A stretch of 64,000 bases of DNA from Hyalangium gracile. GTDB lineage: Bacteria; Myxococcota; Myxococcia; Myxococcales; Myxococcaceae. The position numbers and the translations under genes are program-made. The stretch is taken from positions 1-64,000 of the forward strand of contig NZ_JAHXBG010000003.1 in assembly GCF_020103725.1 (NCBI RefSeq), read 5' to 3'. The notes beneath the pieces are model-generated. The model was not told the origin of the DNA, did no database searches, and was given only the letters and a program-made list of their open reading frames with translations. Below are positions 10,036 through 29,527 of this stretch, one piece after another (the stretch's first letter is position 1; each line of letters begins with the position of its first letter).

Positions 10036-10281
10036 ACAGCGTGCCCTCAGGGTGGAGACTGCGTTGGCTGCCCCCCCGTGTGTCGGGCGTCCGGACGCTC
10101 GCTCCGCTACACGTGGAGCCGTTGCGAATTGTAGCGATACGTCTCGCGCGAAAGCAGCCACCCTTCTCACGCAACGCTGTGCGAAGAACGGTGTCGCGCT
10201 CTCACCGAATCACTACCGAGACAGGATTTTTTCGACGTCGATCTCTACGCGAGGCGTAGGGCCATCACCACCCACCCCGGG

Positions 10282-13193: not shown

Positions 13194-13234
13194 GAGCGCC
13201 CTCCGGTGAGCCCACCGGGGGGCGCTCTGTTTTT
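13194..13234 (+). terminator. Terminator of ahpCD
   Basis: GAGCGCCCTCCGGTG / CACCGGGGGGCGCTC stem with a four-base loop, followed by TGTTTTT. It lies 25 bases past the ahpD stop. Confidence 0.9.
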
Positions 13235-13303
13235 CGGGCTCGCCCCTGCGTGAGGCCTTGCTCGTCACGCCATCGGGGCGAGGTGACGTATCGGGCCACC
13301 TGC

Positions 13304-14644
13304 TCAGCCCCGGTGTCGCTCGGCCACTCGGTACAGCTGGGTGAGCGAGAAGTCCAGCAGCGACTGGCGAGAGCGCAGATAGCGCTGGGCGCGCAGGAAG
13401 GGCAGCCAGACACGCTGGCCCACACGCACCTGCGCCTCTTCCAGTTTCCCACGCGCCATCCACTGCCCGCCCAGGCGGCGTACGAGGACCTGCCCCAGGT
13501 AGGCGCCCACCGCCGGCACCGCGCGCGCATCGAGGTGGTGCCGCTCGAAGACTTCCGGGAAGTTCTCCGCCCAGAGCTGAGCATCCACATCGGTGAGCGA
13601 CTCGGCCGTCTGCTCGAAGATGGAGGGCACCCGGGTGTGCAGCAGCGCCACCAGTTGCTCGGCCAGCAGCGCGTAGTTCTCCAGCGCTGCCTTCGTGTCG
13701 GGCACGTCCGAGGGCAGGGCCGCGCTGGCGGGCAGCCACTCCTCCGGCGCTGGTGGCTGGTAGGCATTCAGCTCCGCGATCCGCGTCTGGCGCTCACCGA
13801 TGGCGACCGTGTCCGCCAGGCGTGCCAGCAGGGGTGCCACGTCCGGGTGAAAGTGGGGCTCCACGGGAACGAGGGCGACGCTGCGCGCATGCAGCGTGCG
13901 CAACACCGTGTCGAAGTCCAGCTCCGGGCGGAGATGAACGAGCGCGCGGGCCTGGGCCTGGCGTGCCTCTTCGCGAGAGAAGTCGGCCGCGGTAGGCCAC
14001 GTCACCAGCAGCACCGAGCCGTTGGGCAGCTCCTCCACGCGGTGCGCTGGAGTGGACAGCATCCGCTCGCGGCCCACCGTGTCCACCAGCTTCGGACCAA
14101 ACACGTTGAGCCAGAACACCTCGTAGATCTTGTCGAACCCATTCTGGAATCGGGTCTCGTCATCCCGGCCAAAGCTGGGAAAGTCCGCCAGCTGCCGGTC
14201 CGCCTTGCTGTGCGCCGTCGCGTAGGCAACCGGGTACTGCAAGGCCCAGGCACGCACCAGCTCCACGAAGGCACGACAGCGCTGCGCCTGCGTGAAGAAG
14301 GTGAGTGGCTGCACATGGAGGTCGACTCTCATCTCCCGGGGGAGCTGCGCGAGCAGGAGGTAGAGCGTCAGTGACACCGCGGGTGCGGCGGCGCGATGCA
14401 TGCTGATCACCGAGCCGGACTCATCGAGTCGCTCTTCCACTGCCGTCCAGACGGCGGCCTGGGAGTACTTGCGCCTCCGCTTTCCCTTGACGGTGTCGGG
14501 CATCCACTCCCCAGCATGTACCTCCAGCGCCTGGAGAAACGGCTCCACCGCACGCTCGAGCGTCATCCGGGGATCGAAGGCCCCATCCAGGGAGAGGGCC
14601 AGGCTGTCCTCCACATTCAGCTCCCGCAGCTTCGACGCCTTCAT
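13304..14644 (-). CDS. Putative immunity/partner protein of the SitA-like toxin
   Basis: 446-residue protein with no signal peptide or membrane segment, so cytoplasmic. I do not recognise a characterised domain. The ATG at 14644 overlaps the toxin stop codon (ATGA), which fixes the start and implies translational coupling with the toxin gene upstream. Coupled production immediately after a polymorphic toxin is what is expected of a cognate immunity protein, though 446 residues is large for one; an accessory or transfer role is possible. The gene ends 69 bases from the convergent ahpCD terminator. Confidence 0.6.
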   Translation of the reverse strand: MKASKLRELNVEDSLALSLDGAFDPRMTLERAVEPFLQALEVHAGEWMPDTVKGKRRRKYSQAAVWTAVEERLDESGSVISMHRAAAPAVSLTLYLLLAQLPREMRVDLHVQPLTFFTQAQRCRAFVELVRAWALQYPVAYATAHSKADRQLADFPSFGRDDETRFQNGFDKIYEVFWLNVFGPKLVDTVGRERMLSTPAHRVEELPNGSVLLVTWPTAADFSREEARQAQARALVHLRPELDFDTVLRTLHARSVALVPVEPHFHPDVAPLLARLADTVAIGERQTRIAELNAYQPPAPEEWLPASAALPSDVPDTKAALENYALLAEQLVALLHTRVPSIFEQTAESLTDVDAQLWAENFPEVFERHHLDARAVPAVGAYLGQVLVRRLGGQWMARGKLEEAQVRVGQRVWLPFLRAQRYLRSRQSLLDFSLTQLYRVAERHRG

Positions 14645-16776
14645 GGAAACAGGACCTCCACGCCATTGATCTCCTGCCTGATGGTGTCCACGGCGCGCTT
14701 CAGATCGTCCCCCTTCATGGGAATGAGTTCCCCACCCTCGTAGACGAGGCGAACCCGCTGCACCCGCGCGCGGATCCTGAGTGAGGGCCGCAGAATGTCC
14801 AACGTCCCGCCGTAATAGGTCACGGCGGCACGCGCATCCATCCTCATCTGGGCCACGAGGTCCCCACCTTCGAGGGAAGCGAGGTAGCGGCTCTTGAAGC
14901 TGAAGGTCTCCACCCGGGGGCTCTGTCCCGCGGGTGGCTGCTCTTCGATGATGAGCACGTCCGCGAAGCGCATGCCGGGCACGCCCGGCTTCGACACGCC
15001 CACGTGCACCTCGACGCGTGGCTGGGAGAAGCCCTTGAGCCAGCGACGCCGCGCTGGCGGCAGGAGGGCATCCGCACGTAGCAGGGCCACCATGGCGCGC
15101 TCGAAGGACAGCCCTCGAGCGAATGCACTCCGCATCCGCTCGTACGGCTCCCACCGCAGTGGCCCTTCCGGCACCTTGCCTTGCCGCAGATCCGCCAGGC
15201 GCCTCTGCCGGTAGGAGACGTACTCGCTCCACAGGGCGGAGCCTTGCGGCACTCCTGGCGGCGGCGAGCTCAACGTGGAGCTCAGGCGCTGGAGCAACGC
15301 CACGTCCGCTGGCAGGCGTGGGCCCGAGGCGTCCAGTTCCGCCTGGTGGAGCCTGGCCTCCACGACTTCCGCGCTGTAGCCGGCGGCCTCATCCACCAGC
15401 GAGGCCAGCCCGCCCGGAGCCCTGCCGGTGCTGGCCCTGGGCTCCGCGGCTCCCACGCGCTCGGGTGGAGCCTCGGACAGCCATGCCTGTGCCCGCGCGA
15501 CGTTTCCCCGCGCTTCATGCAACGCCACGGCAGCCGGCTCGCCCCCGGCAGCCACGAACACCGCCGCTTCCCGGCTGGCTCGAATGTAGCGCGCCAGCGT
15601 TCCCAGCCCCTCCACCCCCAGGCGCTCCCCCACCCTCCACGCCACCTGCTTCAGCGCCTCCATCCTCAGCGCCGGCGAGGAGCGCCACGCTCGCGCCTCG
15701 GCTCCTTCCACCCCAGCCAGGTACCGTGCTCCCCTGCCTCCCGCGTACAGCGCCACGAGCAGCGCCGCGGGCGCCAGCTCACGCGTGGCTTGCTCATACT
15801 GCCCTTGCGTCAGCTCCTTCACCCCATGCGCGGTGCCAGCCACCAGGTGGTAGAAACCCAGCGGAACACCGAACGTCAGCTGGTCCATGCCGCCCAGAGC
15901 CATGTTCCCGGCCGTGTAGTGCTCGCTCACCAGCGCCCGTTCCACCTCCTCCAGCGCCTGCTGGTAGGCCGGCGGCAGCTGCGCGCGCTGCGCGGACAAC
16001 CGCTGGTAGCGAGCCCCGTCGCTCACCGGAGTGCCGCTCAGCGCGTCTCTCGCCGCGCGCTCCAGTCCCCGAAGGATGTCCTCTGCCCGTTCGTCTCGGT
16101 CCGAGTAGTCCTCCAGCTTCAGCCCGCGCTCCGCCAGTTCCTGGCGCACGGGCTCCAGCGGACCCAACGTCTGACCCAGCTGCTTGTCCCGCGCGAGCGC
16201 TCGCAGCAGCAGGTCCAGCTCGTCATCGTAGGCCGCGTGGATGATGAAGAAGGCGAACACCTGGGCGTAGGCCCCGTAGTCCTCCGTGGCCTTCAGCAGG
16301 AAAGAGACCCTCTTGCCGTTCAGTACCCGCGAGGCGCGCGCGTCCACCAGCGGTCCGAACGCGCCCAGCCGCACCGCGCTCCAGTCCCCCAGCCTCTCCA
16401 CCACGCGCGCCATGTTCACGCCGCGCTGCGCCGCCAGGAAGTCCGCCACCGTGGAGCAGCCCAGCAATGGCGCCAGAAGCTCCGCGTCGCTCGCGGCCTC
16501 CTCCGGCCACCCTTCCGGCTTCCGAGGACAACCTGAAACCGGCAGCGCCCCTTGCTCCGCCTCCTGCCATCCCCTCTCCGTCACGAGGACCGCAGCCGGA
16601 GCAGGCGCATCTCCGGGAGTGCTCGGCCGGTAGCGCAGCGCCTCGAACATCATCATCCCGCCCAGCGGAGCTTGCGCTCTGCTGGTGGCGCACCCCGCCA
16701 ACAACAGCCCCCACACCAACCCCCACCCGCTCCAGGCGGCACGGGATGCGAGCGGCTTCAAACGGCCCCCACACAT
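14641..16776 (-). CDS. SitA-like polymorphic toxin lipoprotein
   Basis: 711-residue lipoprotein. The start at 16776 has GGAGG just upstream and gives a compact signal peptide with lipobox LLAGC; an ATG at 16797 has no ribosome site. Most of the chain (about 60-560) is Ala/Arg-rich and helical with a Gly/Ala hydrophobic patch near 320-350. The last 130 residues form a compact domain with an RFADVLIIEE strand and an FSFKSR segment, recalling restriction-endonuclease-fold toxins. A lipoprotein head plus a variable C-terminal effector followed by an immunity gene is the layout of myxobacterial SitA toxins, which kin exchange through TraA/TraB. Family assignment rests on architecture; the nuclease suggestion is weak. 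Confidence 0.6.
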   Translation of the reverse strand: MCGGRLKPLASRAAWSGWGLVWGLLLAGCATSRAQAPLGGMMMFEALRYRPSTPGDAPAPAAVLVTERGWQEAEQGALPVSGCPRKPEGWPEEAASDAELLAPLLGCSTVADFLAAQRGVNMARVVERLGDWSAVRLGAFGPLVDARASRVLNGKRVSFLLKATEDYGAYAQVFAFFIIHAAYDDELDLLLRALARDKQLGQTLGPLEPVRQELAERGLKLEDYSDRDERAEDILRGLERAARDALSGTPVSDGARYQRLSAQRAQLPPAYQQALEEVERALVSEHYTAGNMALGGMDQLTFGVPLGFYHLVAGTAHGVKELTQGQYEQATRELAPAALLVALYAGGRGARYLAGVEGAEARAWRSSPALRMEALKQVAWRVGERLGVEGLGTLARYIRASREAAVFVAAGGEPAAVALHEARGNVARAQAWLSEAPPERVGAAEPRASTGRAPGGLASLVDEAAGYSAEVVEARLHQAELDASGPRLPADVALLQRLSSTLSSPPPGVPQGSALWSEYVSYRQRRLADLRQGKVPEGPLRWEPYERMRSAFARGLSFERAMVALLRADALLPPARRRWLKGFSQPRVEVHVGVSKPGVPGMRFADVLIIEEQPPAGQSPRVETFSFKSRYLASLEGGDLVAQMRMDARAAVTYYGGTLDILRPSLRIRARVQRVRLVYEGGELIPMKGDDLKRAVDTIRQEINGVEVLFP

Positions 16777-16835
16777 GGCTCCTCCCCCTCCGCTCATCGG
16801 CCCAGGAGCGGAGACAGGGAGCAGTAGAGTCCGGC

Positions 16836-16864
16836 CCTCGGGGGGAAGACCACGCCCCCCGAGG
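16836..16864 (-). terminator. Hairpin after the thioesterase gene
   Basis: CCTCGGGGGG / CCCCCCGAGG forms a 10-bp perfect stem with a nine-base loop between the end of the biosynthetic operon (16895) and the toxin gene (16776). No T-tract follows, so it may terminate weakly or protect the 3' end. Confidence 0.45.
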
Positions 16865-16894
16865 TTGCACCGCGCCGATGAGGCTCGGACCGGG

Positions 16895-17824
16895 CTACTT
16901 GATGAACTCGGCCATGGCGCGGGAGATGGCTCCCGTGTCCGGCTCGCCGCCGCTGAAGAGCGTGCCGGCGTCCGCGTTCAGTCGGTGGTAGCGGATCTGC
17001 TCGGGCGGCAGCGCGCGCAGGTGCACCGTGTAAGAGGTGTTCATGTCCAGCTCGAGCTCGTTCTTCTCCTTGCGGCCCACGAGGATGACGTCCACGTGGC
17101 CACGCAGCCGGTTGCGCGGCTTGTAGTTGAGCATCGAGCTGAGCCCCGCCTCGTACATCTTCATCCGGTGCCGGAACAGGTGCTCCTCGGCGGGCCCCTT
17201 CAGGTAGCCCTCGTCACGCACCAGGCCCGTGACGTACTCGTAGCGCTCGGTCTCCGGCAGCGAGCGGATCTTCTCCATCGGCAGCGGCACGTGGATGCCC
17301 AGCAGGCGCTCGAAGATGAAGTGGTGATCCTCGATGGCCCGCAGCTGCAGCGCATCCGTCCCGGGCAGGCACGCCCACGGACGCAGGAACACCGGCATCA
17401 CCTGCACCAGCACCGCCACCTCCTCGCCCTCCTCCTGGAGCCGGCACGCCAGCTCGTAGGACGGCAGCCCTCCCATGCAGAAGCCGCCGATGTAGTAGGG
17501 CCCGTGCGGCTGGAGCGCTCGCACGTGGCGCATCCCGTAGTCGACCACCTCCTCCACCGTGCGCAGGGGCTCGCGCTCCTCGTCGAAGCCGGGCGCCTGC
17601 ACGCCGTAGAAGGGCCGGCGCTCGGGCAGGTACGGCACCATGTGACGGAAGTAGGAGACGCCTCCATCCGTGGCGGGGAAGAAGAAGAAGGGCGGTACCC
17701 CCGCCTCCCCCTTCCTGAACTGGATGAGGTTGGAGGGTGTGTCCTTGGATCCGGATTCGCGGTTCTGGATGAGCGCGCGAAGGAGATGCTGCTTGGCCTG
17801 CGAGAGGGGTGCTGATGCCGTCAT
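16895..17824 (-). CDS. Thioesterase-like alpha/beta hydrolase with Cys nucleophile and degenerate triad
   Basis: 309-residue stand-alone protein of the thioesterase family found in PKS/NRPS clusters. The nucleophile elbow reads GGFCMGG, with Cys116 in place of the usual Ser. The position that normally holds the Asp (VLVDT-type strand) is Gln141, and the GDH segment near the C-terminus reads ADA, so the expected His is absent; His280 is nearby. Cys nucleophiles are known in thioesterases that close strained rings and in Dieckmann cyclases. The ATG overlaps the NRPS stop (ATGA), so it is made with the line and probably releases or edits its product, or has become non-catalytic. Confidence 0.8.
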   Translation of the reverse strand: MTASAPLSQAKQHLLRALIQNRESGSKDTPSNLIQFRKGEAGVPPFFFFPATDGGVSYFRHMVPYLPERRPFYGVQAPGFDEEREPLRTVEEVVDYGMRHVRALQPHGPYYIGGFCMGGLPSYELACRLQEEGEEVAVLVQVMPVFLRPWACLPGTDALQLRAIEDHHFIFERLLGIHVPLPMEKIRSLPETERYEYVTGLVRDEGYLKGPAEEHLFRHRMKMYEAGLSSMLNYKPRNRLRGHVDVILVGRKEKNELELDMNTSYTVHLRALPPEQIRYHRLNADAGTLFSGGEPDTGAISRAMAEFIK

Positions 17825-20800
17825 GGACGTACCTCCTGGGTGGGAACGAGTCGGGAAAGCATGGACTGGGCCTCCTCTTCGCTGAGCTCCGCGACGGCGG
17901 CCTCCAGCGCATCCACGTCACCGCTGCTCGCCGCGGACTTCAGCCGTGCGAACTTGAGCGCACCGGCGAGGCCCTTCACGGTGGGATGGATGAACAGCTC
18001 GGACATGGGCACGGACACACCCAGCCGCTCGCGAGCGGCATACAGCAGGCGCGCCGCCATCAGGGAGTGGCCTCCCAGCGAGAAGAAGTCATCGCCGCGC
18101 CCAGGGCTTCGGCCCGGCAGCAGCTCGCCGAAGAGCGCGGCCACCGCCTCCTCCATGGCCCCCACCGGCGCCTCGTAGGCCATCTCGGCGGGCAGCAGGG
18201 CGTGTGAGGAGGGTGGCAGCGCCTGGCGGTGCACCTTGCCGTTGTGGGTGCGCGGCAGCTCGGTCAGCAGCACGAAGTGCGCGGGCACCATGTACGCCGG
18301 CAGCCGTCCCTTGAGCCAGCTGCGCAGCTCCTGCACCTTCGGATCCGCCCCCGGCGCGGGGCAGAGGCAGGCGATGAGCTCCTTCTCCCCGTCCGGCCCG
18401 ACGCGCGCCACCACGGCCACCTCACCCACCTTCGGGTTCTGGCGCAGCACGTGCTCGATCTCCCCCGTCTCGATGCGGTAGCCGCGGACCTTCACCTGAT
18501 CGTCCAGTCGCCCGAGGAACTCCATGCGCCCATCACCGCGCTGGCGCACCAGATCTCCCGTGCGGTAGCAGCGCAGGGGCTGGGGGAGCACGCCCCCGGG
18601 GTTGATCGTGACGAAGCGCTCGGCGGTGAGCTCCGGCCGGTTCCAGTAGCCCAGCGCCACGCCCTCGCCGCCGATGTACAGCTCCCCGGGCACGCCCGGC
18701 CCCACCGGCAGCCCCGACTCGTCCAGCACGAAGAGCTGCGTGTTCTCCAGGGGCAGCCCCGCGAGGATGGGGGCTGCCTCCACCAGCTTCTCCCGAAGCG
18801 ACCAGATGGTGGTCTCCGTGGGGCCGTACAGGTTCCACAGCTCCGCGCAGCGCGAGGCCAGCCAGTCCACCAGCTCGCGCGAGGGGTGCTCGCCGCCGCA
18901 CAGCGCCTTGAAGCGCGGGTTGCCCTGCCACTCGCACGCCCTGAGCAGCGACCAGGTGGAGGGCGTGCCCTGCATGGCGGTGACACCCTGCTCCGAGAGC
19001 AGCCGGGCCAGCCGCTCCCCGTCGCGCACGACATCGGTCTCGGCGATCACCAGCCGGGCCCCCGTCACCAGCGGCAGGAAGAGCTCCAGCACCGAGATGT
19101 CGAAGGACCACGTGGTGACGGCCAGCAGCACATCCTTCGCGCCGAGCCCCGGCTGGCGCGCCAGGGCCCACAGGCAGCTCACGACGTTGCGGTGGCGCAC
19201 CACCACGCCCTTGGGCCTGCCGGTGGAGCCCGAGGTGTAGAGCAGGTACGCGGGAGCCTCGGAGGTCTGCGCCACGCGCGGGGGCTCCGCGGCACGCAGC
19301 GGCTCCAGCTCTCGCAGCGTCAGGACGGGAACACCCGCGGGCACGGCGCTCGGAGCCGACTCCTCGGCCAGCACGAGCCGGGCCTGGCTGTCCTCCAGCA
19401 TGAAGCGCAGCCGGTCCTCGGGCAGGTCCGGATCCAGCGGCAGGTACGCCGCGCCCGAGCTCAACACTCCGAGCACCGCCGCGAGCAGCGAGGAGGAGCG
19501 CTGCCCCAGCACCCCCACGAAGTGGCCTGGACCGATGCCTCGCCGGGCGAGCTCCTGGGCAATGCCGTGCGCCCGCGCCATCAGCTCCACGCGAGGCAGG
19601 GTGCGGCCCGCGTACGTCACCGCGGGAGCGTCCGGGGCCCGAGCCGCCTCCTGACGCACCCACTCGTGAAGCGTGCGCTCACGCGGCCAGTCCGCCTGCG
19701 TCTGGTTCCACTCCACGAGCACCTCGCGCGCCCGCGCCTGGCTGAGCAAGCCCGCCGCGTCCACCGGCGCCTCCGGGGCCGCGGACAGCCGCGTGGCCAG
19801 GGTGGTGAAGGCCTCCGAGAAGCGCGGGCCGAACTCCTCCGAGAACAGCGACGTGCTGATGAGCAGCATGCCCCGGGTGCCCGTGGCGCTCGGGGTGAGG
19901 TGGCACTCCAGATCGAACTGGCAGAGCTGCGAGTCGAAGGGGTATTCCGCGCAGTCCACCCCCGACAGCCGCAGCGGGCGCGAGGCGTTCTGCATCCCGA
20001 AGAGGATCTGGATCAGCGGACTGCGCGAGGGATCCCTTCGCTGCCCGGCCAGCTGCACCAGCTGCTCGAAGGCCACGCCCTGGTGCTCGGAGGCCTCGAG
20101 CGCATGGCGGTGGACCGCTCGCACCAGCTCCGTGAAGGGCATCCCCGGGGAGATCTCCGTGCGCACCACCAGCGTGTTCACCATGCAGCCGATGAGCGGC
20201 TCCAGGCCGCGATCCCCGCGGTTGGCGTGCGGCGTGCCCACCACCACGTCCCGCTGGCGGCAGAAGCGCTGCAGCGTCACCATCAGCACCGCGAACAGCG
20301 CCGCGAAGGCAGTGGCCCCCGCCTCCGCCGCCACGCGCGCGAGCGCCGCGTCCACCTCGGGAGTCAGGCTGAAGAGGTGCTGCCGCCCCCGGTAGTGCGT
20401 GATGGGCGGCCGGGGGAAGTCCGTCGGCAGCTCCATGGACTGCAGGCGGTCCAGCCGCGAGCGCCAGTAGTCCAGCCCCGTGGAGGCGCGCTGCACCTCG
20501 CGCTCCCAGTCCACGAAGTCCGCATAGCCGAGCTTCAGCTCGGGCAGCGCCGCGGGCCCGCCCTCTCGCGCGGCGCGGTAGAGCGCCTCCAGCTCCGCGT
20601 TGAGCAGCCCGAGCGACCAGCCGTCCGCGACGAGGTGGTGCAGCCCGATGCCCCAGATGTGGTGCTCCGGCCCCAGCTCCAGCAGGCAGGTGCGCACGGG
20701 CGGCTCGCGCTCGAAGTCGAACGGCCCCGCCAGCGCCTCGCGCAGGGCCTGCTGCACCCGCGCCTCGGTGGGCGGGCCCTCCAGGCGGATGCGCCGCAGC

Positions 20801-21201
20801 GGCAGCACGTGGTGCGCGGCGAAGAACTGGACCAGGTGGCCCTCCAGCTCGCAGAAGGTGGCGCGCAGCGACTCCTGGCGCTCCACCACCTGCCGCAGGG
20901 CGCGCTCGAGCAGCTCGGGCCGCAATGGGCCTCGCAGCTCGAAGGCCTGCGAGACAAGGTAGGCGTTCTGATCCGGTGCCAGGCGCGTGAGGAACCACAG
21001 CCGGCGCTGCACGCTCGAGAGCCCCACGGCGGTGCGCCCCTCCAGCAGCGACAACAGCTCCGCCTTGTGCGTGCGCAGCGCCTCCTTGTCCTCGGCCGAG
21101 AGCACTCCACCCGCCGCCTTGAAGCGCAGCTGCCCCTCGGCGGCCCACAGCCGCACGCCCTTGCTGGTGAGCAGCCCCAGCAACCCCCTGGCAGTCGTCA
21201 C
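17821..21201 (-). CDS. NRPS: TubC-type docking domain-C-A(Gly)-PCP
   Basis: 1126-residue single-module peptide synthetase. Residues 1-55 resemble a TubC_N docking domain, used to receive chains from an upstream PKS. The condensation domain (about 58-490) has an intact HHLVADG (188-194). The adenylation domain (about 515-995) has YTSGSTGRPKG (655-665), NLYGPTE and YRTGD. The specificity residues 701, 702, 705, 744, 767, 769, 791, 799 and 800 read D-I-L-Q-L-G-L-I-W with Lys989, the known glycine code. The carrier Ser1046 is in LGGHS. A helical tail follows, and there is no fused thioesterase. The GTG start is preceded by GGAGG and overlaps the PKS stop (GTGA). Confidence 0.93.
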   Translation of the reverse strand: MTTARGLLGLLTSKGVRLWAAEGQLRFKAAGGVLSAEDKEALRTHKAELLSLLEGRTAVGLSSVQRRLWFLTRLAPDQNAYLVSQAFELRGPLRPELLERALRQVVERQESLRATFCELEGHLVQFFAAHHVLPLRRIRLEGPPTEARVQQALREALAGPFDFEREPPVRTCLLELGPEHHIWGIGLHHLVADGWSLGLLNAELEALYRAAREGGPAALPELKLGYADFVDWEREVQRASTGLDYWRSRLDRLQSMELPTDFPRPPITHYRGRQHLFSLTPEVDAALARVAAEAGATAFAALFAVLMVTLQRFCRQRDVVVGTPHANRGDRGLEPLIGCMVNTLVVRTEISPGMPFTELVRAVHRHALEASEHQGVAFEQLVQLAGQRRDPSRSPLIQILFGMQNASRPLRLSGVDCAEYPFDSQLCQFDLECHLTPSATGTRGMLLISTSLFSEEFGPRFSEAFTTLATRLSAAPEAPVDAAGLLSQARAREVLVEWNQTQADWPRERTLHEWVRQEAARAPDAPAVTYAGRTLPRVELMARAHGIAQELARRGIGPGHFVGVLGQRSSSLLAAVLGVLSSGAAYLPLDPDLPEDRLRFMLEDSQARLVLAEESAPSAVPAGVPVLTLRELEPLRAAEPPRVAQTSEAPAYLLYTSGSTGRPKGVVVRHRNVVSCLWALARQPGLGAKDVLLAVTTWSFDISVLELFLPLVTGARLVIAETDVVRDGERLARLLSEQGVTAMQGTPSTWSLLRACEWQGNPRFKALCGGEHPSRELVDWLASRCAELWNLYGPTETTIWSLREKLVEAAPILAGLPLENTQLFVLDESGLPVGPGVPGELYIGGEGVALGYWNRPELTAERFVTINPGGVLPQPLRCYRTGDLVRQRGDGRMEFLGRLDDQVKVRGYRIETGEIEHVLRQNPKVGEVAVVARVGPDGEKELIACLCPAPGADPKVQELRSWLKGRLPAYMVPAHFVLLTELPRTHNGKVHRQALPPSSHALLPAEMAYEAPVGAMEEAVAALFGELLPGRSPGRGDDFFSLGGHSLMAARLLYAARERLGVSVPMSELFIHPTVKGLAGALKFARLKSAASSGDVDALEAAVAELSEEEAQSMLSRLVPTQEVRP

Positions 21202-24200
21202 AGACTTCCCTCCTCGAGCGCCTCGGCCATGGCCTCGGCATTGATGGCAGGCGCACTCGCCTGCCGCACGTGCGTGCACAGCGCCTGGGCCAGGGCTCGA
21301 AGGCTCCGGTCCTCCAGGTAGAGCGACACCGGCACCTCCACCCCCACGAGCGCCCGCATCCGGTTGTTGAGCTGCATGGCCAGCAGCGAGTCGAGCCCGA
21401 GCCGCTTGAGCGACATTCCCTCGGAGATCGCGGTCTCGGTGAGCTGCAGGATGGTGACGGAGTAGCGGCGCAGCAGGGACTCGACGAGCCCTGGCTCCGG
21501 CGTCGAGGCCGAGGCGCGCAGGGCCTGCTCCAGGCGGAGCAGCTCGGGAGGCTCGGGCGTGGCGGCCTGGGCCTCGGTCACGCTCGGCATGCCGGAGGCG
21601 GCGCCCTCCAGGCCCTCGGGCCAGCAAGGGATGCGCTGCCACGGGTAGGCCGGCAGGGAGATGATGCGCCCGCCCCGCCGCTGCACCGCGGCCCAGTCCA
21701 GCTCCACGCCTCGCTCGTAGAGCTGCGCGAGCGTCTCGTAGAAGTAGCGCTGCCCCTCGCCGCGCCGCAGCGAGTGCAGCACGCCGCCCTTCGAGCCCAC
21801 CTCCGCCAGGGTCTGCTCGCAGGCCAGCCCCAGCAGCGGGTGAGGCCCTACTTCGAGCAGCAGATCGATGCCGTCGCGCACCAGCGCGCGCACCTGATCG
21901 TAGAAGCGCACCGGCTGGAGCACGTTGCGCACCCAGTGCCGCGCATCCAGCTCCGAGCCCTCCGCGATGTTGCCGCTCGTGGTGGAGTAGATCGGAATGG
22001 AGCCGACGCGCGGCGCCAGCCCCTCCAGCTCCCGCATGAGGGGCCCCTGGACGGGCTCCACCTGGGGGCAGTGCGACACGGGGAACTCGGCGCCCAGCAC
22101 CCGGGCGAACAGGCCGCGAGCCTGCAGCTCGGCGGCGATGTCCTCCAGGGCCTCCCGCTCTCCCGCCAGGGCGAAGCTGCGCGGGCCGTTGCGCGCGGCC
22201 CGGCTGGCACGCCCCTGCCACCGCGCGAGCGCCGCCTCCAGCTCCTCGGGGGCGCACTCGACCACGGCCATCGTCCCCCGGCCTCGCACGGCCTCCAGGT
22301 GCCGGCTTCGAGCGCTGATGAGGCGCGCCGCGTCCTCCAGGCTCAGCGCGCCCGCCACGTGCGCGGCAGCCACCTCGCCCATGCTGTGGCCGACGACGGC
22401 CGCCGCCCTCACCCCCAGCGACTCCCAGAGCCGGCACAGCGCCACCTGGAACGCGAACAGCACCGGCTGGGCCACGTCGGCCCGCTCCAGGACGGTGGAG
22501 CCCTCGGCCAGCTTCGCCGCGACGGACCAGCCCGTGTAGCGGGCAATCGCCGCGTCGCAGGCCAGCAGCGCCTGACGGAAGACGGGCTCACGCTCCAGCA
22601 GCTCCCGGGCCATCCCGTCCCACTGGCCGCCCTGGCCGGGGAACACGAAGGCCACGCGCGGCGGGTGGGTGGGCGACAGCCGCTCCTCGCGGGGCTGCGC
22701 CAGGGCCGCGGCGAGCCGGTCCTTCAGCACGGTGCGCGAGGTGCCGACCACCGCCATGCGGTGGGGCAGGTGGCTGCGCCCGCAGGCGGCGGTGTAGCAG
22801 AGGTCGTCCAGCGCCACGGACGGCTGGGACTCCAGCATCTCCAACATCCCGGCCACCCGCGCCTGCAGGGCCCGGGGCGAGTGCGCCGACACCGCGAGCA
22901 CGTGCGGTGGGCTCAGGGTCTCCTCGTGCGAGGCCCTGGGGCTGACAGGCACGCCGCAGGCCTGCAGCGCGCTGGCGGCCTCGAGCAGCGTCTCCCACTC
23001 CGAGCCCTGGCGATGGGTGGAGGTGACGACCATGCCGTCACGGCCCGCGTGCGTCAGGCACTGCTCCACGAAGCGGGCGAGCGCCGGCTGCGGCCCCACC
23101 TCGAGGAAGAGATCCTCGCCGCTCTGGGCGAGCATCTCGATGGCCGCGGCGAACTCCACGGGCTCGCGCAGGTTGCGCGCCCAGTAGTTGCCGTCCAGCT
23201 CGCGCCCTTCCATGAAGCGCCCCGTCATCGTGGACAGCAGCGGGGTGTGCGTGGGCTGCGGCGACAGCTCGCGCAGGCCCTGCACGAACTCGGGGAGGAT
23301 GGGCTCGATGAGGGCGCTGTGCGAGGGGAACGCGGCGTCCACGAACGTGCAGCGCACGCCCGCGGCCCGCTGCTCGGCGGCCAGCTTCTCCAGCACCGGG
23401 TGCTCGCCCGCCACCACCGTGGAGGTGGGGCTGTTGCACACGGCGATCGACGCGCCGGGCGTGTGGGCGAGGATCTCCTCGACCTGCTTGCGCGAGCGCT
23501 CCATCAGCAGCAGTCCGCCATGCCCCACCAGCCGACCCGTGAGCTGCCCGCGCAGGCACACCAGGCGCACGGCATCCTCGAGGCTCAGCGCCCCGGCGAC
23601 ATGCGCCGCCGCCACCTCTCCGAGGCTGTGCCCGAGCACCATCCGGGGCACGACGCCCCACGAGCGCCACAGCTCCGCCAGGGCCACCTGCACGGCGAAG
23701 ATGGCCGGCTGCACCACCTCCGGCTCGTGGAGCCGGGACTGTCCCGGGGGCGCCAGCAGCTCCGGCAGCAGCGCCCAGCCCGTCTGCGCCTGGATCTGCC
23801 GCTCGCAGGCCTGGAGGCTGGCGCGGAACAGCGGCGAGGCCATCAGCAGCTCGCGCCCCATGCCGACCCACTGCGAGCCATGTCCCGCGAAGAAGAACAC
23901 CGGCTGGCGGCCCTCTCCCACGCCCTGGGAGACCAGCTCGCGCAGCAGCTCCTCCATCTGCGGGGTGGAGGGCGGGTGCGACTCCTCCAGAATCACGTGC
24001 GCGTTGGTGCCGCCGAACCCGAACGAGCTGACACCCGCGCGCGCCGGCCCGTCGCGCCGGGGCCACTCGGTCAGCCGGGTGTGCACCTCGAGCCCCAGGC
24101 CGGCGAAGTCGATCTGGGGATTGGGCGTGTGGAAGTGCAGGCTCGGCGGGAGCTGCCGGTGACGCAGGCCGAGCGCGAGCTTCATCAGCCCCGCGATGCC

Positions 24201-25547
24201 CGCCGCGGCCTCCGCGTGGCCGATGTTGCTCTTCACCGAGCCGATGCGCAGCGGGCGATCCGAAGGCCGGCCCTGGCCATAGACGGCGCCGATGGCGGAG
24301 GCCTCGATGGGGTCTCCCAGCCGGGTGCCCGTGCCGTGCGCCTCGACGTAGTCGACGGAGGAGGGCTCCACGCCCGCGCGCGCGCACGCCAGGCTGAGCA
24401 CGGCGCGCTGGGCCCGAGGGCTCGGCGCCGTCAGCCCGTTGCTGCGCCCGTCATTGTTGATGGCGGTGCCGCGAATCACGCAGGCGATGGGGTTGCCGTC
24501 CGCGATGGCTCGCGACAGGCGCTTGAGCACCACGAGGCCCGCGCCCTCGGCCCGGACATAGCCGTCTCCGTCCGCGTCGAAGGAGCGGCAGCGCCCGGTG
24601 GGGCTGGTGGCGCCGAAGCGCGCCATCTGCACCATGCTGTCCGGCGCGAGGATGAGGTTGACGCCCCCGGCGATGGCCAGCGTGGACTCGCCGCTGCGCA
24701 GGCTCTCGCAGGCCTGGTGCACCGCGACGAGCGAGGCGGAGCACGCCGTGTCGATGGCCATGCTGGGCCCCTCGAGCCCCAGCGAGTACGAGATGCGGTT
24801 GGCGATGATGCTGTGGTGCAGGCCGGTGACGCTGTGAGGCGCGATGGCGCTCAGCCCCAGGCGCCCCAGCAGCAGGGCGAAGTCACTCCAGATGGCCCCC
24901 AGGAAGACGCCGGTGGCCGAGCCCGCGAGCGAGTACGGCGGAATGCCCGCGTCCTCGAGCGCCTCCCACGTCAGCTCCAGCACCACGCGCTGCTGGGGAT
25001 CCATGTGTGAGGCTTCGCGCGGCGAGATGCCGAAGAACGCCGGGTCGAAGCCCATCACGTCGGGCAGGAAGCCGCCCTGGCGCATGGGGATGGTGCCGGG
25101 CCTGGAGGGGTCCGGGTGGTAGAGGGCCTCGACGTTCAGACGCTCCGGGGGAATCTCCGTCACCGCGTCCTGGCCCGAGCGCAGCAGCTCCCAGAACGCG
25201 GAGGGCGAGTCCGCGCCTCCCGGGAAGCGGCACGCCATGCCGACGATGGCGATGGGCTCCTGCGCGGCGGCCCGAGGCAGCTCGTGGAGGGAGGGAGCGC
25301 TCGCCTTCCCGCCCAGGTGCGCGGCGAGCTCGGAGATGCTCGGGTGCTCCCACAGCAGGGTGAGAGGCACCGGCCGTCCCAGCCACGTGGACAGCCGGGC
25401 GGCGAGTGCGCCCGCGCCCAGGGAGTCCAGGCCGAGCCGACGAAAGCTCGCATGGGCATCCACGCGCTCCGGAGGCACGCTCAGAGATTCCGCCAGCGCA
25501 GCGATGAGCCACCGGCGGATGCTGTCCTGTCCGTATAGGTTGGGCAC
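21198..25547 (-). CDS. Type I PKS: ACP-KS-AT-AT-ACP
   Basis: 1449-residue polyketide synthase. Order: ACP (about 8-80, Ser42), ketosynthase (about 97-520, Cys269 in DTACSAS, His404, His444), acyltransferase 1 (about 548-835, Ser641 in GHSLG), acyltransferase 2 (about 963-1250, Ser1055 in GHSMG), and ACP (about 1355-1430, Ser1387). There is no KR, DH or ER, so the chain stays a beta-ketoacyl thioester. An ACP-KS-AT-AT order is known from myxobacterial combined loading/first-extension modules, where one AT loads the starter on the N-terminal ACP. The residues at the HAFH/YASH selectivity site read FPSH (740-743) and PVSH (1156-1159), so neither extender can be called. GTG start; no clear ribosome site. 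Confidence 0.92.
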   Translation of the reverse strand: MPNLYGQDSIRRWLIAALAESLSVPPERVDAHASFRRLGLDSLGAGALAARLSTWLGRPVPLTLLWEHPSISELAAHLGGKASAPSLHELPRAAAQEPIAIVGMACRFPGGADSPSAFWELLRSGQDAVTEIPPERLNVEALYHPDPSRPGTIPMRQGGFLPDVMGFDPAFFGISPREASHMDPQQRVVLELTWEALEDAGIPPYSLAGSATGVFLGAIWSDFALLLGRLGLSAIAPHSVTGLHHSIIANRISYSLGLEGPSMAIDTACSASLVAVHQACESLRSGESTLAIAGGVNLILAPDSMVQMARFGATSPTGRCRSFDADGDGYVRAEGAGLVVLKRLSRAIADGNPIACVIRGTAINNDGRSNGLTAPSPRAQRAVLSLACARAGVEPSSVDYVEAHGTGTRLGDPIEASAIGAVYGQGRPSDRPLRIGSVKSNIGHAEAAAGIAGLMKLALGLRHRQLPPSLHFHTPNPQIDFAGLGLEVHTRLTEWPRRDGPARAGVSSFGFGGTNAHVILEESHPPSTPQMEELLRELVSQGVGEGRQPVFFFAGHGSQWVGMGRELLMASPLFRASLQACERQIQAQTGWALLPELLAPPGQSRLHEPEVVQPAIFAVQVALAELWRSWGVVPRMVLGHSLGEVAAAHVAGALSLEDAVRLVCLRGQLTGRLVGHGGLLLMERSRKQVEEILAHTPGASIAVCNSPTSTVVAGEHPVLEKLAAEQRAAGVRCTFVDAAFPSHSALIEPILPEFVQGLRELSPQPTHTPLLSTMTGRFMEGRELDGNYWARNLREPVEFAAAIEMLAQSGEDLFLEVGPQPALARFVEQCLTHAGRDGMVVTSTHRQGSEWETLLEAASALQACGVPVSPRASHEETLSPPHVLAVSAHSPRALQARVAGMLEMLESQPSVALDDLCYTAACGRSHLPHRMAVVGTSRTVLKDRLAAALAQPREERLSPTHPPRVAFVFPGQGGQWDGMARELLEREPVFRQALLACDAAIARYTGWSVAAKLAEGSTVLERADVAQPVLFAFQVALCRLWESLGVRAAAVVGHSMGEVAAAHVAGALSLEDAARLISARSRHLEAVRGRGTMAVVECAPEELEAALARWQGRASRAARNGPRSFALAGEREALEDIAAELQARGLFARVLGAEFPVSHCPQVEPVQGPLMRELEGLAPRVGSIPIYSTTSGNIAEGSELDARHWVRNVLQPVRFYDQVRALVRDGIDLLLEVGPHPLLGLACEQTLAEVGSKGGVLHSLRRGEGQRYFYETLAQLYERGVELDWAAVQRRGGRIISLPAYPWQRIPCWPEGLEGAASGMPSVTEAQAATPEPPELLRLEQALRASASTPEPGLVESLLRRYSVTILQLTETAISEGMSLKRLGLDSLLAMQLNNRMRALVGVEVPVSLYLEDRSLRALAQALCTHVRQASAPAINAEAMAEALEEGSL

Positions 25548-25944
25548 GAAAGATAGGAGGTGGTGGAGCCTTTACAGCCCGCATAGCCCACCATGGATGT
25601 GAGGCGCGGTTCAACCTCACATGCGCGCAGTTGCACGCAGATGTGACTCTCCACCTCGGAGAATCACCCATGAAAACCTGTTTCACATGTTTCAAATGGC
25701 TCTCGGTCATCGCCGCGACACAGGCAGGGTGATGAGGGCAGCGGACGCGAAGAGCGCCCGTTAGTGATGCTCGACGAGCGCCTGGAAGGGACCTTCCCGT
25801 TTGTGCAGCTTCCTGCACGGAGGTTCACAGTCGAGCCTTACCCGGGGCTCCTTCTCTCGCGGGGTTGGCGCGGGCATGAGGGTTGCTGAACCGGATGTGC
25901 CTCCGCCGCCCAAGCGGCCGAGCCACTCCGAGGAGCCCCCCCAC
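25548..25944. promoter_or_regulatory. Divergent control region of the PKS-NRPS operon
   Basis: This gene-free region separates the PKS (minus) from a lipoprotein gene (plus). It carries four half-sites: ATGTGA at 25597 and 25641, and TCACAT at 25617 and 25683. The first pair forms an inverted repeat with a 14-base spacer. They resemble CRP-type half-sites, but the spacing is not the CRP spacing. The rest holds nothing recognisable. Confidence 0.4.
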
Positions 25945-26757: not shown

Positions 26758-26803
26758 AACCTGGGTGAGGCGCGCGGGCCCGACCTCCGGTAGGGTGCGC
26801 GCC

Positions 26804-28081
26804 GTGAGCGACGACTTCTCCATTCCAGCGTTCCGCGCCGTGCCCCGCACGGGCGTCATCTACGTCACCACCGAGGCCAGCCGCCGGGGTTACCGTCCAG
26901 GAGACCCCGAGTGGTGCAACCTGGGCCAGGGCCAGCCGGAGACGGGCGATCTGCCGGGGGCCCCGCCCCGGGTGGGCAAGGTGGCGGTGGACGTGGCGGA
27001 CCTGGAGTACGCCCCGGTGGCGGGGCTGTGGGAGGTGCGCGAGGCGATCGCGGGCCTCTACAACAAGCTCTACCGCAAGGGGATGCCCAGCCAGTACAGC
27101 GCGGAGAACGTGAGCCTGTCCGGCGGTGGCCGCACCTCGCTGACGCGGGCGGCGGCGAGCCTGGGCATGGTGAACCTGGGCCACTTCCTGCCGGACTACA
27201 CCGCCTACGAGGAGCTGCTGGACGTCTTCAAGGCGTTCACCGCCATCCCCATCCTGCTGGAGGGCGAGCGCGGCTACGCCTTCACCCACGAGGATCTGCG
27301 GCGCGAGGTGCAGGGGCGCGGGCTGTCCGCCCTGCTCTTCTCCAACCCGTGCAACCCCACCGGCAAACTGGTGCAGGGTGACGAGCTGGCGCGCTGGGTG
27401 GGCGTGGCGCGCGAGCAGGAGTGCACGCTGCTCATCGACGAGTTCTACTCGCACTACGTCTGGACGGGGCGCCCCGGACAGCTCCCGGTGGAGAGCGCGA
27501 CGCGCTACGTGGAGGACGTGAACCGCGATCCAGTGGTCGTCTTCGACGGCCTGACGAAGAACTGGCGCTATCCAGGCTGGCGGATGACGTGGACGGTGGG
27601 GCCCAAGCAGGTCATCGAGGCCGTCTCCAGCGCGGGCAGCTTCCTGGATGGCGGAGGCAGCCGTCCCCTGCAGCGCGCCGCGCTGCCGCTGCTGGACGAG
27701 CAGACGGTGGTGGCCGAGACGCTGGCCATCAACGCGGCGTTCCGCGAGAAGCGGGACCGGTTCCACTCGCGGCTGGAGCGGCTGGGCATCCGCAGCGATC
27801 GCCCGCCGGATGGGACGTTCTACGTCTGGGGCAACCTGGCCGGGCTGCCGGCGCCGCTCAACGACGGCATGGGCTTCTTCCGGGCCGCGCTGGAGCAGAA
27901 GATCATCTGCGTGCCGGGCGAGTTCTTCGACGTGAACCCGGGCAAGCGCCGCGCCCGCTCCTCGCGCTTCCGGCAGTACGTGCGCCTGTCCTTCGGCCCT
28001 TCCATGGATGTGCTGGACAAGGCGCTCGAGCGGCTGGAGGCCCTCATCCTGCGCCACATGCAGGCGCCCCCGCAGCCGTGA
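26804..28081 (+). CDS. PLP-dependent aminotransferase, class I/II
   Basis: About 425 residues (GTG at 26804 preferred because an AGGG sits upstream; a GTG at 26765 would add 13 residues). Fold-type I landmarks are present: the substrate Asn in NPCNPTG, the Asp-x-x-Tyr pair in DEFYSHY, and the Schiff-base Lys in the TKNWRYPG segment, followed by an Arg-rich C-terminal part. The family transfers amino groups between amino acids and 2-oxo acids in the cytoplasm; the substrate cannot be read here. It lies 48 bases before the arsenosugar-associated gene, so it may share that transcript, or may belong functionally to the nearby biosynthetic operon. Confidence 0.85.
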   Translation: MSDDFSIPAFRAVPRTGVIYVTTEASRRGYRPGDPEWCNLGQGQPETGDLPGAPPRVGKVAVDVADLEYAPVAGLWEVREAIAGLYNKLYRKGMPSQYSAENVSLSGGGRTSLTRAAASLGMVNLGHFLPDYTAYEELLDVFKAFTAIPILLEGERGYAFTHEDLRREVQGRGLSALLFSNPCNPTGKLVQGDELARWVGVAREQECTLLIDEFYSHYVWTGRPGQLPVESATRYVEDVNRDPVVVFDGLTKNWRYPGWRMTWTVGPKQVIEAVSSAGSFLDGGGSRPLQRAALPLLDEQTVVAETLAINAAFREKRDRFHSRLERLGIRSDRPPDGTFYVWGNLAGLPAPLNDGMGFFRAALEQKIICVPGEFFDVNPGKRRARSSRFRQYVRLSFGPSMDVLDKALERLEALILRHMQAPPQP

Positions 28082-28129
28082 TGCGGGCCCCTCCTCATCC
28101 GTATCCACCCGAAGCAGGAGGTCCCCACC

Positions 28130-28468
28130 ATGGAGCACCCGCACTACTACCACTCGCATGATCTGGCCCGCTTCCCCGAGATGGGGAAGAACCGGCCGGA
28201 GCTGGCGCAGAAGTTCTTCGACTGGTACGGCGCCGTCTTCGCGGAGGGCGCGCTCTCCGCGCGGGAGAAGTCGCTCATCGCCCTGGCGGTGGCGCATGCC
28301 GTCCAGTGCCCGTACTGCATCGACGCCTACAGCAAGGACGCGCTGGAGAAGGGCTCGGACCTGGACCAGATGACGGAGGCGGTGCACGTGGCGGCGGCCA
28401 TCCGGGGAGGCGCCTCGCTGGTTCACGGCGTGCAGATGCGCAACCACGTGGACAAGGTGGGCATGTAG
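28130..28468 (+). CDS. Arsenosugar biosynthesis-associated peroxidase-like protein
   Basis: 112-residue AhpD/carboxymuconolactone decarboxylase-type protein with the CPYC redox motif (CPYCIDAY) near residue 62, preceded by a helix rich in Ala. Proteins of this subfamily sit next to arsS in many bacteria and sometimes have selenocysteine at the first Cys; here it is an ordinary Cys. It lies nine bases before arsS, so the two are co-transcribed. The exact reaction is not established; a redox role in organoarsenic handling is the usual inference. Confidence 0.85.
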   Translation: MEHPHYYHSHDLARFPEMGKNRPELAQKFFDWYGAVFAEGALSAREKSLIALAVAHAVQCPYCIDAYSKDALEKGSDLDQMTEAVHVAAAIRGGASLVHGVQMRNHVDKVGM

Positions 28469-28477
28469 GGCCCCACC

Positions 28478-29527
28478 ATGGCTACGAACACGCCTCCCTC
28501 CCTGCTGTCGCGTCGAGCACCGCTCGCCTCTCCGGCCACCCAGCTGGAGACGCTGCACCGGCTGAAGCTGCCGCGAGAGTTCGACGACGCCCTCCGGGAG
28601 GCGGGGCTCCATCCGCTACGGCCCATGCGGCTGGACATCCTCCAGATGAACCTGGGGAAGATGTGCAACCAGACGTGCCGCCACTGCCACGTGGACGCGG
28701 GGCCGGACCGGCGCGAGGTGATGAGCCGGGAGACGATGGAGCAGTGCCTGGCGGCGCTGGCGAAGACGGCCATCCCCACGGTGGACCTCACGGGCGGCGC
28801 GCCGGAGATGAACCCGCACTTCCGCTGGCTGGTGGAGGAGGCGCGGAAGCTGGGGCGGCACGTGATGGACCGGTGCAACCTGACCATCCTCGAGACGGCG
28901 CCGCACGCGGACCTGCCGGAGTTCCTCGCGCGGCACCGGGTGGAGGTGGTGTGCTCGCTGCCGCACTACCGGGCGCTGAACACGGACAAGCAGCGCGGCG
29001 AGGGCGTGTACGAGAAGTCCATCCGCGCGCTGAAGCGGCTCAACGCGCTGGGCTATGGAGACGGCCAGAGCGGGCTGCGCCTGGTGCTGGTGACCAACCC
29101 CGTGGGCGCGTACCTGCCCGCGGGCCAGGCCTCGCTGGAGGCGGAGTGGAAGCGCGAGCTGCTGAGGAACCACGGCGTCCGCTTCGACGCGCTCTTCACC
29201 ATCACCAACATGCCCATCAGCCGCTTCCTGGAGTGGCTGGAGCAGTCAGGCAACCTCGCCGCGTACCTGGAGCGGCTGGTGACGGCGTTCAACCCGGCGG
29301 CGGCCCCAGGGGTGATGTGCCGCAACACGCTGTCGGTGGGCTGGGACGGCCAGCTCTACGACTGTGACTTCAACCAGATGCTCGACCTGCCGGTGGAGGC
29401 CGGAGCACCTCGGCACATCCGGGACTTCGATCTGGCGAAGCTGGAGGCCCGGAGCATCGTCACGGAGCGTCACTGCTTCGGATGCACCGCCGGGGCGGGC
29501 TCGAGCTGCGGCGGCGCCACCACCTGA
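28478..29527 (+). CDS. arsS: Arsenosugar biosynthesis radical SAM protein ArsS
   Basis: 349-residue radical SAM enzyme. The cluster motif CNQTCRHC (Cys63, 67, 70) binds the 4Fe-4S that cleaves S-adenosylmethionine. The C-terminal DUF3641 region carries further Cys in CRNT, DCDFNQ, CFGC and a final SSCGG, typical of the ArsS family that adds a deoxyadenosyl group to arsenic. The peroxidase-like partner is immediately upstream. The arsenite methyltransferase ArsM, often nearby, is not in this window. The 3' end overlaps the convergent gene by 58 bases. Confidence 0.9.
   Translation: MATNTPPSLLSRRAPLASPATQLETLHRLKLPREFDDALREAGLHPLRPMRLDILQMNLGKMCNQTCRHCHVDAGPDRREVMSRETMEQCLAALAKTAIPTVDLTGGAPEMNPHFRWLVEEARKLGRHVMDRCNLTILETAPHADLPEFLARHRVEVVCSLPHYRALNTDKQRGEGVYEKSIRALKRLNALGYGDGQSGLRLVLVTNPVGAYLPAGQASLEAEWKRELLRNHGVRFDALFTITNMPISRFLEWLEQSGNLAAYLERLVTAFNPAAAPGVMCRNTLSVGWDGQLYDCDFNQMLDLPVEAGAPRHIRDFDLAKLEARSIVTERHCFGCTAGAGSSCGGATT

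Follow-up and report, generated by a model that had tools for sequence, protein, structure and literature searches.

The first 64,000 nucleotides of contig NZ_JAHXBG010000003.1 (hereafter the window, which begins at the contig start) from the myxobacterium Hyalangium gracile (assembly GCF_020103725.1; genome 11.7 Mb) contain a cassette of three open reading frames (ORFs) on the minus strand, spanning positions 16895-25547 (about 8.7 kb). They encode a polyketide synthase (PKS), a nonribosomal peptide synthetase (NRPS) and a separate thioesterase-like (TE-like) protein. It is proposed that an N-(beta-ketoacyl)-glycyl chain is assembled by the two synthases, transferred to a Cys of the TE-like protein and released by Dieckmann cyclization as a 3-acyl tetramic acid; to this reading as a whole a probability of roughly 0.42 is given. 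Assembly of the beta-ketoacyl-glycine is very probable on the domain evidence, and release as a tetramate by the TE-like protein is plausible at somewhat less than even odds. What is new is a PKS-NRPS variant with a Cys TE-like protein that lacks the usual Asp and His; the module with two adjacent acyltransferases is already known.

The cassette and its predicted chain

The genes, each neighbouring pair of which overlaps by 4 bases, and their domains are as follows (ACP, acyl carrier protein; KS, ketosynthase; AT, acyltransferase; C, condensation; A, adenylation; PCP, peptidyl carrier protein).

21198..25547, minus strand: PKS gene, 1449 aa, ACP-KS-AT1-AT2-ACP (Pfam and orthologue alignment)
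25314..25514, minus strand: ACP1, putative starter carrier, GLDSL intact (Pfam, residues 12-78)
23964..25259, minus strand: KS, Cys-His-His intact in DTACSAS, EAHGTGT and NIGH (Pfam and motifs)
22959..23900, minus strand: AT1, GHSLG, LRG with Arg kept, FPSH motif (motif reading)
21741..22649, minus strand: AT2, GHSMG, Arg kept, unusual FPVSH motif (motif reading)
about 21279..21452, minus strand: ACP2, about residues 1366-1423 (Pfam)
17821..21201, minus strand: NRPS gene, 1126 aa, TubC_N-C-A-PCP (Pfam and orthologue alignment)
21040..21183, minus strand: TubC_N docking domain (Pfam)
19723..21027, minus strand: C domain, HHLVADG (Pfam and motif)
18235..19656, minus strand: A domain, code DILQLGLIWK, glycine (Pfam and code residues)
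17956..18138, minus strand: PCP, LGGHSL (Pfam and motif)
16895..17824, minus strand: TE-like protein, 309 aa, alpha/beta-hydrolase (Pfam, fold matches and alignment)

Pfam finds PP-binding, KS, two Acyl_transf_1 and PP-binding domains in the PKS, and TubC_N, Condensation, AMP-binding, AMP-binding_C and PP-binding domains in the NRPS, the start of which is a GTG at 21201 inside a longer ORF. The order ACP-KS-AT-AT-ACP / docking-C-A-PCP / thioesterase-like, read in a first-pass annotation of this DNA, is borne out by the three ORFs, and so is the absence of reductive domains: no ketoreductase (KR), dehydratase or enoylreductase is listed by Pfam in the three proteins. The KS Cys-His-His, the Ser/His of both ATs, the Ser of both ACPs, the HHxxxDG of the C domain and the PCP Ser are all intact. 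The system is a hybrid PKS-NRPS, with a motif-intact PKS module followed by a C-A-PCP line that carries a docking domain. Six further cassette loci (L036-L041) were recovered, from Hyalangium versicolor H56D21, Polyangium sp. 6x1 and four Nannocystis records. A chance reading or a wrong frame is ruled out, because all three genes recur in L036-L040 and also in L041, where the PKS and NRPS are fragmented.

Activation of glycine by the A domain is well supported, because the codes of orthologues and relatives match published glycine codes. Codes were read in seven NRPSs (the window, L036-L040 and the distant L043), and all are of the glycine type. The window residues read DILQLGLIW plus K517, which confirms the code given by the first-pass annotation; DILQLGLIWK is also present in L036 and L040, DILQFGLIWK in L037, DILQLGMIWK in L038 and L039, and DILQLGVIWK in L043. 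In the available portion of the literature, four glycine domains with MOX share the code DILQLGMIWK, and twelve glycine codes vary at positions 299, 322 and 330 (PMC12283262). The L038/L039 code is identical to this published one, and the cassette codes differ among themselves at 299 and 322, both within the published variable positions. The code DILQLGVI of NcmB is predicted to specify glycine, which fits the structure of the tetramic acid nocamycin (PMC5466765, excerpt).

In the proposed pathway, AT1 would charge ACP1 with a starter and AT2 would charge ACP2 with an extender, presumably in this order, after which the KS would condense the two into a beta-ketoacyl-ACP that stays unreduced within the line. 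The PKS ends after ACP2 in an acidic tail, EEGSL, which is likely a docking tail and would dock onto TubC_N. The C domain would then acylate PCP-bound glycine. The beta-ketoacyl-glycyl thioester anticipated by the first-pass annotation follows from these domains, with glycine backed by the published codes. The chain would pass on to Cys116 of the TE-like protein, where the acidic methylene could attack the thioester, the Dieckmann ring closure yielding a 3-acyl tetramic acid.

The TE-like protein

The TE-like protein matches the Thioesterase family PF00975 at 76.9 bits (cut-off 26.4), over profile positions 2-99 of 226 only. Scans of the protein with NCBIfam gave weak partial matches, and tblastn against plasmid records returned matches that were all below 60% identity (24-31% among the matches listed). 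The AlphaFold model, built with 7 sequences, is an alpha/beta-hydrolase of middling confidence, with a mean pLDDT (predicted local distance difference test) of 62.3 and a pTM (predicted template modelling score) of 0.66. The best solved fold match is AB3403 (4zxh; Z 19.5, root mean square deviation (rmsd) 4.3 over 274 residues), followed by the TE of human fatty acid synthase (Z 18.2, rmsd 3.4 over 230 residues). The protein is a separate alpha/beta-hydrolase with Cys at the nucleophile position, as are the cyclases TrdC and NcmC.

The family (seven orthologues and two relatives at 38-39% identity; n=9) was aligned with 26 comparison TEs, one each from loci L010-L035. The nucleophile column holds Ser in 26/26 comparison TEs and Cys in all nine family members, in which the elbow GGFC[MN]GG and Cys116 are kept (GGFCMGG in the window protein). 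At column 143 the comparison TEs have Asp (23) or Asn (3) and the family has Met (7) or Leu (2), and at column 286 the comparison TEs invariably have His, which is replaced in the family by Ala (3), Ser (4) or Gly (2). In the window protein these positions are Met143 and Ala286, and in a separate phmmer alignment Met143 is again opposite the Asp of AB3403. The Ser/Cys-Asp-His triad is thus incomplete at the aligned columns in all nine members, with Cys present and Asp and His replaced. In comparison with BpdE, 27 residues after the Cys, the distance from Cys89 to Asp116 in that enzyme, Met or Leu is found in 9/9, and no member has His at the column of BpdE His245, 156 residues after the Cys. 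A His is conserved family-wide at position 280, 164 residues after the Cys, and so are Asp53 (Gly in 26/26 comparison TEs) and His219 (His in 1/26). On this alignment, Asp53, His219 and His280 are no more than candidate substitute bases.

Comparison with characterised release enzymes

Free-standing TE-like Dieckmann cyclases have been described with a Cys-Asp-His triad in which Cys is the nucleophile; in BpdE, four active sites (Cys89, Asp116, His245 and Tyr204 are named) were mutated and judged essential, and the C89S variant failed (PMC10956176, in the part available). In the beta-lactam-forming SulM, the C2818S variant rapidly hydrolyzes its product and the Asp variant was dead in a single trial; its authors argue that sulfamate activation needs no catalytic base (PMC11298585). 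Beta-lactone formation by ObiF depends on the Cys, and activity was lost in all triad mutants, about eightfold in the Asp variant (PMC6668435). By analogy with these examples, a Cys nucleophile goes together with ring release, yet Asp and His are present in each of them.

The nocamycin and tirandamycin systems (NcmB with NcmC, TrdC and BpdE) share with the cassette a separate TE-like protein with Cys and, as far as the accessible text of the sources goes, yield a tetramic acid, the product class proposed here; NcmB is likewise a C-A-PCP protein predicted for glycine. According to the same sources, NcmC, TrdC and BpdE differ in having Cys-Asp-His and an extra helical subdomain, whereas the Asp and His columns of the cassette protein hold other residues, and nocamycin assembly involves five PKS proteins instead of one. 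AB3403, from a single-module NRPS of Acinetobacter, combines the best fold match with a Cys nucleophile, but it retains Asp after beta6, and its TE is fused to a four-domain NRPS without PKS. The ObiF1 and SulM TEs share the Cys nucleophile and make a small ring, a beta-lactone and a beta-lactam, respectively, but their Cys-His-Asp triad is complete, with Asp after beta7. The cassette protein is not classed with the TrdC/NcmC group, because Asp and His are present in all characterised Cys cases compared.

This departure from the complete Ser/Cys-Asp-His triad carried by the literature TEs and free-standing Dieckmann cyclases compared is what gives the family its significance. A conserved relative that retains the Cys without the usual Asp and His, beside lines predicted to make a beta-ketoacyl-glycyl thioester, raises the question whether ring closure of an acidic chain needs a His base or, alternatively, whether loss of the His is a means of avoiding hydrolysis. 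With three genes in about 8.7 kb, the cassette is small enough to be expressed as a unit, and if a tetramate is made, it would be a convenient minimal system for engineering this class.

Relatives, conservation and selection

The six loci are the entire return from contigs of 84,980 species when one protein served as the query, a search that reaches only close relatives. Relative to the window, the TE-like protein is 90% identical in H. versicolor H56D21, 78% in Polyangium sp. 6x1 and 65-66% in Nannocystis. The corresponding NRPS values are 88% (L036), 73% (L037) and 54-56% (L038-L040); those of the PKS are 89% (L036), 72% (L037) and about 56% (L038 and L040), with L039 aligning in pieces of 53-69%. 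Within the phylum, a TE-like match (E <= 1e-35) was found in 4 of 195 genomes: that of the window, the sister Hyalangium genome G082 (G082 and H. versicolor H56D21 are counted once) and two genomes from a different genus of the same family, with proteins 38-39% identical. In Nannocystis pusilla (L041, 1058-9970), the PKS and NRPS are in pieces and the TE-like gene is intact, reflecting either sequencing error or decay.

The dN/dS ratios (NG86; TE-like, NRPS and PKS, respectively) are 0.20, 0.18 and 0.16 between the window and L036; 0.19, 0.25 and 0.30 between the window and L037; 0.20, 0.38 and 0.39 between L038 and L040; and 0.35, 0.58 and 0.51 between the window and L038, where synonymous counts are near saturation. 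The TE-like protein, the best conserved of the three, is under selection, because its dN is the lowest in all four pairs and its dN/dS is low, below both synthases in three pairs and slightly above them in the closest one. An inactive relic is rejected on the intact motifs and the low dN/dS of close pairs.

A second architecture is found in the two genomes of the other genus, where a PKS and, beyond it, a TubC_N-C-A-PCP NRPS come after the gene for the 38-39% TE-like protein.

L042, 12948-20000: second-architecture locus
L043, 4323-11933: second-architecture locus

Pfam finds KS, methyltransferase and ACP in the L042 PKS, without AT or KR. Pfam scans of four PKSs (those of the window, L036, L038 and L042) found no KR in any of them; L037, L039 and L040 align along the KR-less PKS, and L041 and L043 are known from tblastn pieces. 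The TE-like gene adjoins a KS and an NRPS in 9/9 loci. This co-occurrence with a KS and an NRPS, of the glycine type in the seven read, is the best indirect evidence for the substrate of the TE-like protein.

Weighing of the proposed release by the TE-like protein

Several observations weigh against the Dieckmann release proposed here. NcmC (6e6y) ranks only 50th in the Foldseek list (E 2.8e-7), with other TEs higher. His280 lies six residues before the usual His column, and in L008 and L009 an Asp stands at column 141, two residues before the usual Asp column, so that the triad may be merely shifted. Because Asp and His matter in BpdE, SulM and ObiF, a TE-like protein without them could also be inactive. 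The 3-acyl tetramic acid named in the first-pass annotation therefore stands in part: it is possible from the assembly, but the TE-like protein lacks, at the aligned columns, the Asp and His of both ordinary TEs and TrdC/NcmC. The protein may nevertheless act in the manner of TrdC/NcmC, if the acidic methylene of the beta-keto amide needs little help or if His280 has taken over a shifted role. That it founds a new type of Cys off-loading cyclase without the standard Asp-His, in a mobile and unusually small PKS-NRPS tetramate cassette, is a speculative extension and unlikely on present evidence.

It is also conceivable, though unlikely, that the TE-like protein is a pseudoenzyme, a non-catalytic binding or gating partner, and that the thioester cyclizes by itself or leaves through another enzyme. 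This would fit the empty Asp and His columns of all nine members and the importance of these residues in BpdE, SulM (Asp) and ObiF, but sits poorly with the retention of Cys116 and its elbow in all nine and with the strongest conservation within the cassette. Hydrolytic release of a linear N-(beta-ketoacyl)-glycine, perhaps by a shifted triad with His280, is considered quite unlikely. Membership of the PF00975 TE family, the family-wide His280 and the nearest solved fold, a single-module NRPS bearing a TE, agree with it. However, hydrolysis is disfavoured because the water-activating His and Asp are absent from their usual places, a His at column 280 also occurs in 17 of the 26 ordinary TEs alongside their normal His, and Cys nucleophiles are tied to the ring-forming TEs of ObiF and SulM.

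The line could instead be a starter unit whose beta-ketoacyl-glycyl chain is passed in trans to another NRPS or PKS. The NRPS does end in a conserved acidic/helical stretch, and the genome has 36 Condensation matches, of which 34 exceed the cut-off; since Pfam names no other synthase in the 20 flanking window ORFs scanned, and the neighbours differ in Polyangium and Nannocystis (by ORF comparison, these flanks being outside the Pfam scan), this is judged improbable. The lowest odds are given to an editing (type II) TE that clears stalled chains, a role that would suit a free-standing protein with RifR and BorB among its fold matches; here too, hydrolysis is made less likely by the absence of the usual Asp and His, and the cassette would be left without any other release domain. 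Dieckmann release by the TE-like protein is kept as the working interpretation.

No characterised cluster or product matching the cassette was found in the openly licensed literature searched, from which the strings ACP-KS-AT-AT-ACP and DILQLGLIW are also absent. Neither the literature on tetramic acids and tetramates from myxobacteria, Hyalangium, Nannocystis and Polyangium nor that on Hyalangium compounds contains a product for the cassette among the matches listed; the word 'tetramic' is absent from PMC12766979. From Hyalangium ruber, pyrazinones and macrolactin A are reported in the source text available.

The tandem-AT loading module

By Pfam, the PKS has the layout of a tandem-AT loading module: a leading ACP, one KS, two adjacent ATs and an ACP. 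Judged by this domain order, it corresponds to the known myxobacterial pattern for loading and first extension, here making up the entire PKS. In the parts of the papers available, ACP-KS-AT1-AT2 is described as a rare pattern known in myxobacteria, and for myxalamid, soraphen and myxothiazol it has been conjectured that the starter is loaded by the first AT and the extender by the second (PMC6117699); the same pattern is found for ajudazol, aurafuron, chondramide and gulmirecin (PMC10646177). The cassette shares it with these modules and with that of stigmatellin, on the extracts consulted, but unlike them its module is the entire PKS and feeds a glycine NRPS directly. AT-AT tandems were found in at least 25 of 145 genomes of the class, including that of the window (window AT1-AT2 query, E <= 1e-130), a lower bound as the seven best candidates per genome were scored.

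For comparison, 28 AT-AT loci were used (30 listed minus the window and G082), many from close relatives and picked by their AT-AT match, whatever domains precede the ATs. The Arg after the GHSxG region is absent from AT1 in 23 of the 28 loci and retained by AT2 in all of them, whereas AT1 retains it in all six cassette loci aligned (window and L036-L040), and both cassette ATs carry unusual motifs. This Arg binds the malonyl carboxylate. If it does so here, the starter accepted by AT1 may be a dicarboxylate and not a branched or aromatic unit. The motifs vary by genus: in Hyalangium and Polyangium AT1 has FPSH and AT2 FP[VM]SH, and in Nannocystis they have YAAH and FPIH, respectively. The solved-structure neighbours of both are modular ATs, those of erythromycin, pikromycin and tylactone among them, and give no substrate call. 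The odd, genus-variable motifs leave no basis for a statement on chain length or lipophilicity; the "short lipophilic" product suggested by the first-pass annotation finds no support in two ATs with non-standard motifs, the first of which retains its Arg.

Patchy distribution and genomic neighbourhood

The cassette is present in two of seven Hyalangium genomes, with an empty site in the other five, and also in Polyangium and Nannocystis. In the five cassette-less sisters the flanks are 542-927 bases apart, compared with about 12.6-13.5 kb. The shared left flank reaches window positions 13243-13247, and the right flank resumes at 25847 in G081 and at 26769 in the other four, which lack a slightly longer stretch than G081.

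13248..25846, no strand: stretch of about 12.6 kb absent between the same flanks in sister G081, holding the cassette and a lipoprotein-like gene (synteny)

In G082 the right flank is collinear; the left flank is on another contig, with other sequence after it. The pattern is more simply read as gain of an island than as loss of the cassette, although loss is also conceivable. The flanking ORFs differ between genera; because numerous short matches from outside the cassette enter the summed E-values of the tblastx flank comparison and make it noisy, the sister-flank comparison is the basis of the synteny claim.

A large cluster with its remainder nearby is rejected, as Pfam names no further synthase in the 20 flanking ORFs scanned. 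The right-hand neighbours are disfavoured as cluster members, being present in cassette-less sisters too: the genes at 26765-29527 (plus strand), which by Pfam encode an aminotransferase, a carboxymuconolactone-decarboxylase-like protein and a radical SAM/DUF3641 protein, probably lie outside the cassette, because they are present in G081. No promoter was found by the promoter scan, nothing was found by Rfam and tRNA searches of the window or by phage-family scans of four flanking ORFs, and five terminator-like sites were counted against a shuffled mean of 2.5 (sd 1.9).

A strong terminator-like hairpin of 15 pairs at 13194-13227 lies inside the left end of the shared synteny, about 20 bases from the island start. 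The island also carries a lipoprotein-like ORF of 718 aa (14641-16797, minus strand; homologous stretch 13299-16796) without a Pfam match. Its family is multi-copy, with DNA about 66-81% identical among the matches listed at many sites in Hyalangium genomes and several copies within the host genome itself. Further to the left, a surface-type protein of 1598 aa is encoded at 5374-10170 (minus strand), with Ig-like/HYR repeats and an NHL/SGL-like stretch.

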